From: Methylobacterium sp.
Lineage (GTDB): Bacteria; Pseudomonadota; Alphaproteobacteria; Rhizobiales; Beijerinckiaceae
Reading direction: 5' to 3'
Length of the DNA stretch: 15,052 bases
NCBI GenBank assembly: GCA_021154065.1
Contig: JAJKJG010000129.1
Span: 1-15,052 of the forward strand
The translations under genes and the position numbers were made by a program. The number at the start of each line of letters is the position of its first letter. Position 1 is the first letter of the stretch. This document shows positions 9,144 to 14,509 of the stretch, piece by piece. The notes under the pieces are model-generated. The model made no database searches, was not told the origin of the DNA, and was given only the letters and a program-made list of their open reading frames with translations.

Positions 9144-9240
9144 GTCGTCCCGGACGATCCGAAGGATCGATCCGGGACCCGACAGCTCCGCCGGCTGCGC
9201 TGGCGACCCGGCTCTTCGCTTCGCTTCGGCCGGGATGAGC
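9144..9240 (+). repeat. Palindromic element A (soxZ-soxB junction)
   Basis: A 97-bp element of two half-units in inverted orientation. The left half is a near-perfect hairpin, 9148-9177: outer stem TCCCGGA/TCCGGGA, inner stem CGATCC/GGATCG, loop GAA, and one unpaired A. The right half ends in GCCGGGATGAGC, mirroring the left end. It has the same plan as the element at 12447-12546: flanks and loop are shared, while the inner stem sequence differs completely but still pairs. It encodes no gene. Confidence 0.8.
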
Positions 9241-10951: not shown

Positions 10952-11098
10952 TGTCATTCCGGGGCGGGCCGGAGGCCCGAGCCCGGAACCCATAACCGCT
11001 GCAGCTTGGAAGGACGGCGCCGAAGCATCAGACCAAGCAGCCCAACCGCAGTGTTTATGGGTTCCGGGCTCTCGCCTGCGGCGAGCCCCGGAATGACA
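10952..11098 (+). repeat. Palindromic element B (soxB-soxC junction)
   Basis: A 147-bp element with 44-bp inverted arms (10952-10995 and 11055-11098) around a 59-bp centre. Each arm is itself a hairpin: 10957-10988 (outer TTCCGGG/CCCGGAA, inner CGGGCC/GGCCCG, loop GGA) and 11062-11093 (same outer stem, inner CTCGCC/GGCGAG). The arms are identical outside the inner stem, and the inner-stem differences are compensated so pairing is kept. The outer end TGTCATTCCGGGG matches a repeat type I recall as common in Rhizobiales intergenic DNA. Confidence 0.85.
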
Positions 11099-11154: not shown

Positions 11155-12426
11155 ATGGCGAAGGATCGGCCTGATCACGCCCCCTCCCGCCGCGTGCTGC
11201 TGCGCTCGGGCCTTATCGCCGGCGCCGCGACGCTCAGTGGCAAGGCGGCGGCCGCCGGCAATCCGGCGAACCAGCCGCCGAACGTGCCCGACTGGTCCAA
11301 ATACCTCGGCGACGGCGTCGCGGTGCGGGCCTACGGCAAGCCCTCGCGGCACGAGGCGCATGTCGTGCGGCGCGACGTCGAGTGGCTCACCGCCGCAAAG
11401 GAAAGCTCGGTCAGCTTCACGCCGCTGCATGCGCTCGAGGGCGTGATCACCCCGAACGGACTTTGCTTCGAGCGCCATCACGCCGGCATCGCCGAGGTCG
11501 ACCCCGCCGACTACCGGCTGATCCTGCATGGCCTCGTCGACAAGCCGCTGGTCTTCACGCTCGACGACCTCAAGCGCTTCCCGCGCCTGAACCGGGCCTA
11601 TTTCTGCGAATGCGCCGCGAACTCCGGCATGGAGTGGCGCGGCGCCCAGCTCGACGGCTGCCAGTACACGCACGGCATGGTGCATTGCGTCATGTACACC
11701 GGCGTGCCGCTGCGCCTCCTCCTGCAGGAGGCCGGCCTCAAGCCTGCCGCCAAATGGCTGCTGCTCGAAGGCGCCGATGCCGCCGCCATGACGCGCTCGC
11801 TGCCGCTCGAGAAGGCGCTCGAGGACGCGCTCGTCGCAACCCACATGAACGGCGAGATGCTGCGGCCCGAGAACGGCTATCCGGCCCGCATCGTGCTGCC
11901 CGGCTGGGAAGCCAATATGTGGGTCAAGTGGCTGCGCCGCATCGAGGTCGGCGACGAGCCCTGGCACACCCGCGAGGAGACCTCGAAATACACCGACCTC
12001 CTCGAGAACGGCCGGGCGCGCCGCTTCACCTATGTCATGGACGCGAAATCGGTGATCACGAGCCCGAGCCCGCAGGCGCCGCTCAACCACCGCCGCGGCC
12101 TGACGGTGCTGTCGGGGATCGCCTGGTCCGGCCGCGGGCGGATCGCGCGCGTCGACGTCTCGCTCGACGGCGGCCGCAACTGGGTGACGGCGCGGCTCGA
12201 CGGGCCGGTCTGGGACAAGGCGCTGACCCGCTTCTACCACGACTTCGACTGGGACGGCCGCGAGCTCCTCCTGCAGTCACGCGCCCTCGACGAGACCGGC
12301 TACGTGCAGCCGACGAAGGCGGAGCTGCGCCGCCACCGCGGCGTCAACTCGATCTACCACAACAACGGCATCCAGACCTGGCACGTGAAGACGAGCGGGG
12401 AGGTCGAGAATGTCGAGGTCGGGTGA
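11155..12426 (+). CDS. soxC: SoxC, molybdenum-cofactor subunit of sulfane dehydrogenase SoxCD
   Basis: A 423-residue sulfite-oxidase-fold protein that with SoxD oxidises the sulfane sulfur on SoxY in the periplasm. The Tat signal is SRRVLLRSGLIAGAA (RR at 12-13). The Moco-ligating cysteine lies in YFCECAANSGMEW; Cys153 is the best candidate, with an additional Cys151. Other family features are HGLVDKPLVFTLDDL, the GYPARIVLPGWEANMWVKWL segment and a C-terminal dimerisation domain from about residue 280 ending in GIQTWHVKTSGEVENV. A GGAG box lies at 11145-11148, 6 nt before the ATG. The last 17 nt overlap the start of soxD, which indicates translational coupling. Having SoxCD predicts complete oxidation of thiosulfate to sulfate rather than sulfur-globule storage; this is family knowledge, not seen directly. 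Confidence 0.95.
   Translation: MAKDRPDHAPSRRVLLRSGLIAGAATLSGKAAAAGNPANQPPNVPDWSKYLGDGVAVRAYGKPSRHEAHVVRRDVEWLTAAKESSVSFTPLHALEGVITPNGLCFERHHAGIAEVDPADYRLILHGLVDKPLVFTLDDLKRFPRLNRAYFCECAANSGMEWRGAQLDGCQYTHGMVHCVMYTGVPLRLLLQEAGLKPAAKWLLLEGADAAAMTRSLPLEKALEDALVATHMNGEMLRPENGYPARIVLPGWEANMWVKWLRRIEVGDEPWHTREETSKYTDLLENGRARRFTYVMDAKSVITSPSPQAPLNHRRGLTVLSGIAWSGRGRIARVDVSLDGGRNWVTARLDGPVWDKALTRFYHDFDWDGRELLLQSRALDETGYVQPTKAELRRHRGVNSIYHNNGIQTWHVKTSGEVENVEVG
12397..12403 (+). promoter_or_regulatory. Ribosome binding site that decides the soxD start
   Basis: GGGGAGG lies inside the 3' end of soxC, 6 nt before the ATG at 12410. It is the strongest Shine-Dalgarno-like sequence near soxD. The alternative in-frame ATG at 12542 lies inside the end of the palindromic repeat and has no comparable site. 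Confidence 0.7.
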
Positions 12427-13177
12427 GCCGACGCGCGCCCTCCCCTGTCATCCCGGAAGCCGCGAAGCGGCTATCCGGGACCCATGGCCCAAGCGCCGCG
12501 GGCGCCGGTGGATCCCGGCTCTCCGCTTCGCTGCGGCCGGGATGACGGTGCTTGTTGCGGCGGCAGGAGCCCTCGCTCAACCGAAGAAGCTCGGCATCGG
12601 CCGCGAGGCGACGCGCGAGGAGATCGCCGGCTGGGACATCGCCATCCGCCCCGACGGGCGCGGGCTGCCGCCCGGCAAGGGCACGGCGAAAGCCGGCGAG
12701 GGGCTCTATCTCGAGCGCTGCGCGTCGTGCCACGGCGAGTTCGGCGAGGCGAACGGGCGCTGGCCGGTCCTGTCCGGCGGCGACGGCACGCTGGCGAGCC
12801 ACGACCCGGTCCGGTCGATCGGCTCGTATTGGCCCTACGCCGCGACGGTGATGGACTACATCCGCCGCGCCATGCCCTTCGGCAATGCGCAATCGCTGAC
12901 CAACGACGAGCTCTACGCGGTGACGGCCTACGTCCTCTACCTCAACGACGTGATCAAGGACGAGGGCTTCGAGCTGAACGAGCGGAGTTTCGCGGCGATC
13001 CGGCTCCCGAACGAGCCGAATTTCCTCGACGACGACCGCGAGACGGCCGAGCGCGAGTTCTGGAAGCCGGAGCCGTGCATGGCGAGCTGCCTGCCTGGCG
13101 AAGCCCGGATCGTCGGCCGCGCCAGGGCCGTCGACGTGACGCCGGAAACCGGCAAAACCGGCCCGAAGGTCGAATAA
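12410..13177 (+). CDS. soxD: SoxD, c-type cytochrome subunit of sulfane dehydrogenase, with repeat-derived leader
   Basis: A 255-residue cytochrome c that takes electrons from SoxC. One haem site is visible, CASCH (Cys104, Cys107, His108), with a probable axial Met155 in RRAMPFGN and a C-terminal CMASC cysteine pair (223/227). Paracoccus SoxD is diheme and, as I recall, about 380 residues, so this is the short single-haem form. The start at 12410 is favoured by a GGGGAGG site 6 nt upstream and the soxC overlap. Codons 13-45 are encoded by palindromic element C. The resulting Sec-type signal reads KRRGRRWIPALRFAAAG followed by MTVLVAAAGALA, with cleavage probably after ALA (residue 56). Starting instead at the ATG at 12542 would leave a 12-residue leader without any positive charge, a poor signal peptide. 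The identity is secure; the exact start is inference. Confidence 0.87.
   Translation: MSRSGEPTRALPCHPGSREAAIRDPWPKRRGRRWIPALRFAAAGMTVLVAAAGALAQPKKLGIGREATREEIAGWDIAIRPDGRGLPPGKGTAKAGEGLYLERCASCHGEFGEANGRWPVLSGGDGTLASHDPVRSIGSYWPYAATVMDYIRRAMPFGNAQSLTNDELYAVTAYVLYLNDVIKDEGFELNERSFAAIRLPNEPNFLDDDRETAEREFWKPEPCMASCLPGEARIVGRARAVDVTPETGKTGPKVE
12447..12546 (+). repeat. Palindromic element C inside the soxD reading frame
   Basis: A 100-bp element bounded by GTCATCCCGG and CCGGGATGAC. The left half-unit is a hairpin at 12451-12480 (TCCCGGA/TCCGGGA outer stem, AGCCGC/GCGGCT inner stem, GAA loop, one bulged A). The right half-unit ends at 12546 and contains CCGC/GCGG. It begins 21 bp after the soxC stop and lies wholly within the soxD open frame with no stop codon. 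Flanks and loop are the same as in the element at 9144-9240, but the inner stem is entirely different and still paired. Confidence 0.85.
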
Positions 13178-13289
13178 GCCGGAGTGATGGATGGCGATGG
13201 CGAGCCCGTGCAACGGTGATGGAACGATGCCATGGAAATCCTTCCACGGCGTGCGATACCTTCCACGACATCCCGATAGGGGTCGGCCG

Positions 13290-14255
13290 ATGGCTTCAGA
13301 CGACAATCCCCCCGGCGCGCCGACCCGCAGGGCGGTCATCGGCGGCCTCGCGGCGCTGACCGGCGGGCTCGCCGGGGCGACGCTCGGACCACGCCGCGGC
13401 GCCGCCGCGACGGTCTCGGCGCCGGTCCGGGTCGGCGACATCGAGCTGATGGTGGTGAGCGACGGCACGCTGGCGGCGCCGCGCGCCTTCGCCCTGCCGC
13501 AGACGCCGCCGGCCGAGGTCGAGGCGCTCTACCGGGCGCACGGCGCCGAGGCGCCGCCGCAATTCGTGTCGCAGACGAACGCGACGCTGGCCAAGATCGG
13601 CGGCGAGCTCATCCTCGTCGACGCCGGCTCGGGCCCGAACTTCCAGGCGACGGCCGGCCGGCTGTCGCAGAACCTCGAGGCGGCCGGCATCGATCCGGAG
13701 ACGATCGCCAAGGTGGTCTTCACCCACGGCCACGCCGACCACCTCTGGGGCGCGCTCGACGATTTCGAGGATGCCGAGCGCTTCCCGAACGCGAGCTACG
13801 TCATCCCGGCCGCCGAGTGGGATTTCTGGACCAATCCCGACACGCCGGGCCGCCTGCCGGACTGGCTCAAGGGCATGGCCCGCGGCTCGGCGCGGGTGCT
13901 CCGCAAGATCGAGGCCAAGGTCGAGCGTCGGCGCGCCGGCGAGGCGGTGGCAGCAGGGCTGACCTACCTCGACACCGCCGGGCACACGCCGGGCCATATG
14001 GCGGTCATGGCCGAGAGCCGCGGCGAGCGGCTCCTCGTCGGCGGCGACGCGCTCAACAATGCCGTCGTCTCGTTCGCCCGCCCGGACTGGCCGTTCGGCA
14101 GCGACCTCGACAAGGACGCCGCCGCCGCGACCCGCCGGACGCTGCTCGACCGGCTCGCCACCGACCGCATCCCGCTCATCGGCTTCCACCTGCCCTGGCC
14201 CGGCATCGGCCGGGTCGCGCGCGAAGGGGTGGGCTATCGCTTCGAGCCGCTGTAG
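13290..14255 (+). CDS. Tat-exported metallo-beta-lactamase-fold hydrolase, SoxH-like
   Basis: A 321-residue MBL-fold protein. A Tat-type signal [16 protein letters not shown] lies at residues 11-26. The metal-binding set is complete: THGHADH (His146, His148, Asp150, His151), His236 in GHTPGHM, Asp253 in VGGDALNN and His300 in GFHLPWPG. This predicts a binuclear, probably zinc, periplasmic hydrolase. MBL proteins called SoxH accompany sox clusters in Paracoccus and others, but their reaction is not settled. The symbol is left blank because orthology cannot be proven by eye. The ATG at 13290 is chosen because the signal then starts properly and an ATAGGGG site lies at 13276-13282; the longer frame from 13191 would bury the signal. 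It lies 112 bp after soxD on the same strand. Confidence 0.88.
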
Positions 14256-14294: not shown

Positions 14295-14509
14295 GAGCCG
14301 CTTCGCGGCGGCTTCTTGCGCTGGGTCCCGGGTCGCATTCCGCTTACGATGAGCCCGGGAAAGCCGTGGAGGGATTGGCGCGAACCCCTCTCCCGAACGG
14401 AATTGGCGTTCGCTCTCTCAACAGCGCTTTCCCGGACGCCTGCAACGCAGCGAAGCGAAGTGGAAGGCGATCCGGGACCCAGCGCAAGACCCGCCGCGAA
14501 GCGGCGCCG
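14294..14509 (+). repeat. Large nested inverted repeat D behind the sox block
   Basis: A 216-bp element. The 18-bp arms TCTTGCGCTGGGTCCCGG (14314-14331) and its exact complement (14472-14489) are flanked by further near-perfect arms (14294-14311 with 14491-14508, one mismatch). Inner arms CCGGGAAAGC (14355-14364) and GCTTTCCCGG (14426-14435) add a third layer around a 61-bp centre. The TCCGGGACCCA string is shared with the copy at 12447. No open frame in it is convincing. It may be a MITE-like unit or two nested palindromic repeats. Confidence 0.75.

Follow-up and report, generated by a model that had tools for sequence, protein, structure and literature searches.

The soxC–soxD junction and element C

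We analyzed a 15,052-nt stretch of DNA from Methylobacterium sp. (contig JAJKJG010000129.1; the window), which carries soxY, soxZ, soxB and soxC (NCBIfam models, scores above the cut-off) and soxD (Pfam cytochrome c domains), and in which a palindromic repeat, element C, lies within the 5′ part of soxD. The soxC stop codon (12424–12426) lies 3′ of the soxD ATG (12410–12412), and the next in-frame ATG of soxD is that at 12542, in the far end of the element (Table 1). An earlier note on this sequence had placed the soxD start at ATG 12410, overlapping soxC and 6 nt downstream of GGGGAGG, and had placed element C wholly inside the soxD frame; the sequence bears out both, the frame being open from 12410 to 13177. 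PDB 2xts_B, which we take to be Paracoccus SoxCD (the database table entry reads cytochrome), aligned with SoxD residues 60–248 (E 2e-61), and because the alignment begins at residue 60, the mature protein should start 3′ of element C. We propose that the repeat interrupted and rebuilt the soxD signal peptide and that it is translated in frame from 12410 in a precursor predicted to be exported by Sec, a reading that we consider probable.

Table 1. Features of the soxC–soxD junction, in window positions
Feature	Positions	Strand	Basis or remark
soxC, sulfane (sulfite) dehydrogenase molybdenum subunit	11155..12426	+	NCBIfam TIGR04555, 633.6 bits against a cut-off of 420
GGGGAGG, Shine-Dalgarno-like site for soxD, within soxC	12397..12403	+	sequence; 6-nt spacing to ATG 12410
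soxD, c-type cytochrome subunit of SoxCD, 255 codons and stop	12410..13177	+	open reading frame; Pfam PF13442/PF00034; PDB 2xts_B
putative older-leader remnant, residues 1–12 (MSRSGEPTRALP)	12410..12445	+	first codons overlap soxC; repeat-free homologues start MSR/MSK at the same overlap
palindromic element C, 102 bp, residues 13–46	12446..12547	+	head-to-head dimer of CGTC-type REPs, tags TGTC and GACG
left REP of element C	12446..12483	+	tag TGTC, stem TCCCGGA/TCCGGGA, loop itself pairable, tail CCC(A); read by eye
KRRGRR, basic n-region from element C, residues 28–33	12491..12508	+	translation
right REP of element C, inverted	12507..12547	-	tag CGTC, stem ATCCCGGC/GCCGGGAT, 16-nt loop, tail CCACC; read by eye
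predicted h-region FAAAGMTVLVAAAGALA, residues 40–56	12527..12577	+	7 residues from element C and 10 from the older signal peptide
rival start ATG in the right terminus of element C	12542..12544	+	overlaps the TGA of another frame as ATGA

Element C has a conserved core, GTCAT...ATGAC, of 100 bp (12447–12546), and the single-stranded DNA fold of the element (−37.5 kcal/mol) was lower than that of any of 200 shuffled sequences (−25.2 ± 2.8 kcal/mol), showing that the palindrome is stronger than expected by chance. We compared its parts by eye with the definition of the CGTC-tagged repetitive extragenic palindromic sequences (REPs) given by Di Nocera, De Gregorio and Rocco (2013; PMC3733652), where these are described as mostly alphaproteobacterial head-to-head dimers with an unpaired terminal CGTC, TGTC or CCTC tag, an AT-starting stem of 8–9 bp, a CCA-like tail and no known dedicated transposase. 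The window copy is tagged TGTC on the left and CGTC on the right, and the copy in a related soxD locus, L002, CGTC at both ends; the right stem has 8 bp and the left 7 bp, its A standing opposite a C; and the tails and inverted dimer agree with the definition. The loops differ, being of 16 nt rather than 4–5. Because of these loops we label element C CGTC-type, a REP dimer that would fall outside the four defined CGTC REP families. With a loosely defined search pattern, G was the commonest outer neighbor of GTC, occurring in 25 of 45 hits (some hits are not repeats, and 2 lie in the window); the first tag base is therefore loose in this family.

Consistent with a dispersed repeat, a 109-base query around element C gave 51 matches in G001, the genome of soxD locus L001, where 40 of the 120 first-look candidates were scored and some places matched on both strands; in G002, the genome of L002, 40 of 70 candidates were scored and there were 13 matches. 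The 34 stretches fetched from G001 contained 38 clean copies, with cores of 87 to 114 bp in three length classes of 14, 13 and 11. The length of 100 bp given earlier is right for the core, and the tagged unit, with one base added on each side, comprises 102 bp or 34 codons (13–46), compared with 120 bp in L002. The contention that a simple insertion must shift the frame is thus not borne out. A frame-keeping length is a one-in-three chance, because 13 of the 38 clean G001 copies are, with their tags, multiples of three.

The soxD leader in relatives

Relatives indicate where soxD began before the repeat arrived. Among 113 soxD-bearing loci (some of them duplicates), 96 had a plus-strand hit and 91 were distinct. 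A sequence pattern found an ATG in the end of soxC at 45 of the 91, in frame with mature SoxD at 44 of these 45; the 46 loci lacking a pattern-type ATG lie outside that count. As the earlier note had suggested, we compared N-termini with and without the repeat, and found that repeat-free homologues (for example L003–L007) start MSR or MSK at the same soxC overlap and continue into a normal hydrophobic stretch. ATG 12410 would accordingly be the old soxD start. The same comparison disposes of the proposal that the repeat created the export signal: repeat-free relatives already possess a normal signal peptide that begins at this ATG, so we rejected the creation of a signal from nothing.

Of the 45 loci whose soxC end contains an ATG, three (L002, L137 and L001) have a leader in which a single search pattern detected a tagged palindrome. 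The tag of L002 (Rhizobiales bacterium YIM 77505) stands 36 nt after the ATG, as does that of the window, and the L002 element comprises 40 codons. Place and length together point to, but do not prove, one shared insertion that has been kept in frame. Alignment of the two leader DNAs required three 9-nt gaps, two within the element and one 3′ of it. A family-level search of 397–398 genomes found no relative closer than G001 and G002, and a genus-level search around these two returned the same two genomes only.

Read-through of the repeat was also found in proteins. Among the matches listed (120 of 5429 with E ≤ 0.001), P0001–P0009 and P0018 read from MSR or MSG through the repeat into SoxD, and P0010 starts at a valine inside the element. 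A contig is listed for P0001, P0002, P0006, P0007, P0008, P0009 and P0018; since none is listed for P0003–P0005, and P0003 is apparently a chimera whose leader resembles that of the window and whose C-terminal part does not, these seven weigh more than the other three. A search with SoxD residues 1–60 alone yielded 6 such proteins among 160 candidates, P0001–P0006, all known from the SoxD search. The arrangement recurs in homologues 75–96% identical, the clusters of P0001 and P0002 comprising 60 and 62 sequences. In P0008 the codon at the element end specifies T rather than M, and there is no further M ahead of the mature domain; because of this P0008 has no start at an element-end ATG, and to judge from its sequence it must start upstream or at a non-ATG codon. 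The peptide PALRFA(A/S)AG is identical in all ten read-through proteins, a conservation that would fit a working signal moved into the element.

Two further loci suggest that other repeats have entered the same leader. In L137 (1246–1400, genome G253) a CCTC-tagged palindrome lies in frame 38 nt after the ATG; the repeat type was scored at 40 places in G253, that of L137 included. Since this in-frame repeat is 106 bp long with its tags, flanking bases matter for the frame and would be what keeps it, and L137 appears to be an independent in-frame insertion. In L001 (4765–4950) a CCTC-tagged palindrome of 131 bp stands 45 nt after the ATG, out of frame; its copies elsewhere in G001 are mostly partial. 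The frame opened by the old ATG of L001 closes after 57 codons at a TGA sharing bases with the ATG of MRGVVLGLAAVVAVGAAAEP (ATGA), so that SoxD of L001 seems to start in the end of the repeat, which would supply its start codon. Protein P0124 reads through another palindrome-like peptide (VIPGG...PGMT), known from the protein only, which we take to be repeat-encoded.

The predicted signal peptide and competing explanations

Signal peptides were assessed by crude measures: h-region length, net charge, hydropathy and the presence of an AxA-like site. Read from 12410, the leader has a net charge of +6 in the 15 residues before a 17-residue h-region and follows the Sec pattern, with a basic n-region, a hydrophobic core and AxA before the mature start; by the AxA rule, cleavage is likely after ALA (12577/12578). 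The ten read-through leaders are similar, with a net charge of +2 to +7 followed by an h-region of 16–18 residues, and 118 MSR/MSK homologues outside this set have a median h-region length of 18 and a median charge of +1. The peak hydropathy of the window leader is 2.46, against a median of 2.6 in the 118. Read from 12542, the leader has 12 residues and no charge, as had been stated, and no Shine-Dalgarno site was seen by eye at that ATG in the window. The element does encode the KRRGRR n-region described earlier; its share of the core, given then as the first half, is 7 of 17 residues. c-type cytochromes use Sec. A twin-arginine signal was rejected, RR being absent before the core in P0005, P0007 and P0018.

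These observations suggest the following course of events. In an ancestor of this lineage of Beijerinckiaceae-related bacteria, a tagged REP dimer would have entered the region of soxD that encodes the signal peptide, roughly 36 nt past the original start codon. The net insert being a multiple of three, translation from 12410 would still reach mature SoxD. The element would have come to lie between the old n-region and the second half of the original hydrophobic core, and would have provided a new basic n-region, made of an R/K-rich spacer and the arginine of PALRF, together with the first seven residues of the core (F40–T46), the other ten (V47–A56) stemming from the older signal peptide. The preprotein would be exported by Sec and cleaved after ALA as before, and selection may have acted on the new leader. 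When the insert was deleted in silico from the ten read-through proteins, the last AxA-like site fell at residue 20–26, and the rejoined core had 18 residues in P0007 and P0009, a clear signal peptide, and 14 to 17 in P0001–P0003 and P0008. On our reading, the repeat split a signal peptide that was already there, and the upstream half of that peptide may since have decayed in some lineages.

Several observations weigh against this reconstruction. The rejoined core has only 9–12 residues in P0004, P0005, P0006 and P0018 (4 of 10), so that the older signal peptide appears plain in some relatives only, and peak hydropathy lies below the 5th percentile of the 118 homologues (2.16) in P0004, P0005, P0006, P0009 and P0018 (5 of 10). 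Of these homologues, 23 have leaders with no net positive charge. Open frames come easily in this repeat family, the soxD frame being open and of the same length class in 20 of the 76 orientations of the 38 clean G001 copies, and the conservation of the arm could reflect the repeat rather than the protein. In favor of the reconstruction, a proline in the stretch corresponding to the SoxD h-region (FAPAG) occurs in 15 of 26 distinct right arms of other copies with NCG at that codon (10 of 19 from the fetched G001 stretches; 5 of 7 from G002, its soxD copy left out) and in none of the ten read-through SoxD proteins; this contrast, however, counts related sequences as separate, and with 2 or 3 independent lineages it is non-significant (0.18 and 0.08). 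When mature SoxD sequences were placed in a tree, the read-through rows (11 with that of the window) fell into more than one group and needed 6 changes, and 2 of 500 label shuffles gave so low a value. Good support was obtained for 4 of 35 inner branches, and most forks are weak. Frame loss, gene conversion and repeated insertion in the clade are indistinguishable from this tree.

The most serious alternative is that SoxD starts at 12542, that the element is an untranslated or leader-frame spacer between soxC and soxD, and that the upstream open frame arose by chance. It would be favored by the ease with which such a frame arises and by a warning in PMC3733652 that most REPs at N-termini of coding regions may be extragenic through misannotation. 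A start at the equivalent of 12542, which the earlier note had named as speaking against its interpretation, was partly found: at L001, where a different repeat lies out of frame, and in P0011, P0014, P0015, P0019 and P0042, for which it is known from annotation alone, the annotated starts (M-T) fitting the apparent repeat-end ATGAC. By analogy with L001, these homologues may restart there. Against such a start in the window stand the short leader, the missing Shine-Dalgarno site, the absence of the element-end ATG from P0008, and a frame kept in both the window and L002 despite elements of different length. Charge alone cannot exclude it, given the 23 uncharged leaders just mentioned, and the length of the leader is the stronger argument. 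On balance we consider a start at 12542 unlikely. Alternatively, the main role of the repeat might be that of an RNA hairpin controlling the SoxC:SoxD ratio, with the encoded leader as a tolerated by-product. The RNA fold of the region is strong (−106.2 kcal/mol, z −3.9), and REPs are mostly near gene 3′ ends and in many cases plausibly transcribed (PMC3733652), but the hairpin begins 36 nt into the open reading frame (ORF), past the start codon, and is not generally needed, since at 42 of the 45 loci that have an ATG in soxC the one pattern used detected no tagged repeat. We hold this very improbable as the main role, and it can coexist with a rebuilt signal.

That a recent or neutral insertion damaged SoxD and left an early pseudogene is scarcely credible. 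P0034, 98% identical over the part covered (172 aa), has an annotated N-terminus that is short and of different sequence, which, judged from the protein only, would fit a frameshift between the repeat and the mature part; yet in the window the frame is unbroken and the heme motif CASCH is preserved, and the arrangement recurs in the homologues and large clusters described above. We therefore retain the rebuilding of the signal peptide as the preferred explanation. More tentatively, and with less chance of being right than wrong, the soxD leader may be a recurrent landing site for repeats with a built-in rescue, either read-through or an ATGA restart from an ATGAC or ATGAGG right terminus. If so, in-frame entry would give harmless read-through into the signal peptide, entry in the wrong frame would give a stop–start ATGA restart, and such repeats would keep supplying overlapping operons with new signal peptides and start sites.

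Precedents, other copies and neighboring features

REPINs with RAYT transposases are dispersed, like element C, as units of two inverted REPs. The RAYT domain (Y1_Tnp, PF01797) was detected in neither of the two relatives G001 and G002, whereas 5 of 14 control genomes were positive, and we rejected mobilization by RAYT. Intragenic copies of CGTC-tagged REPs have been described (PMC3733652), and the abstract, sections 6, 14 and 15 and further passages of that paper mention no signal-peptide case. The palindromic elements of Rickettsia (RPE; Ogata et al. 2000, cited through PMC2229807 and PMC3733652) resemble element C in that functional proteins contain them in frame; PMC3733652 assigns RPE-4 and RPE-6 to the CGTC REPs and notes that Rickettsia conorii proteins with an N-terminal RPE-1 are expressed. 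They belong to another lineage, and the passages on them in the two papers mention no signal peptide. A precedent is RU-2/YPAL in Yersinia YPO1552 (Delihas 2007, PMC2759123; reviewed in PMC2229807), where the signal sequences of relatives are unrelated to the repeat. A repeat-derived signal sequence is thus a known kind of event. YPO1552 is a 144-aa putative exported protein with a different repeat family, whereas soxD encodes a known enzyme subunit and has repeat-free relatives and a visible insertion point. Besides Delihas 2007, the titles and beginnings of abstracts listed in literature searches yielded no repeat-encoded signal peptide, and none in soxD. What is new here is the repeat family, the conserved enzyme and a visible insertion place with relatives on both sides. 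The case is a clear one of selfish-looking DNA apparently absorbed into a working part of the precursor of a conserved enzyme, suggests that signal peptides tolerate such insertions, and offers a testable counterexample to the usual dismissal of N-terminal REPs as misannotation.

Elsewhere in G001, the 38 clean copies were associated with 9 ORFs in which coding-like sequence flanks the repeat on one or both sides. Three were checked against Pfam: L148 has two domains and apparently represents neighboring genes fused across the repeat, and the other two are putative N-terminal overlaps with it. Rfam had no match in the window, viral contigs contained no relative of the query, and four plasmid records matched, each only over the query up to about 12417, that is, soxC.

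Other palindromes occur in the window. One related to element C (GTCGTCCCGG...CCGGGATGAGC) lies between soxZ and soxB (9144–9239); the two arms match their counterparts in element C at 76% and 94%, and the right end is eroded. Between soxB and soxC (10952–11098) there is a longer palindrome, also TGTC-tagged but of a different type, with 58-nt arms that are 83% complementary. An ORF of 291 aa (12484–13359, + strand, another frame), whose ATG lies inside element C, overlaps soxD and is probably a chance ORF of GC-rich DNA. The gene after soxD (13191–14255) encodes a metallo-beta-lactamase-fold hydrolase, which we do not assign to the AidB family because it scored 150 bits with the AidB lactonase model, below the cut-off of 360. 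It is followed by a composite inverted repeat (14314–14489) with 32-nt arms 112 nt apart.
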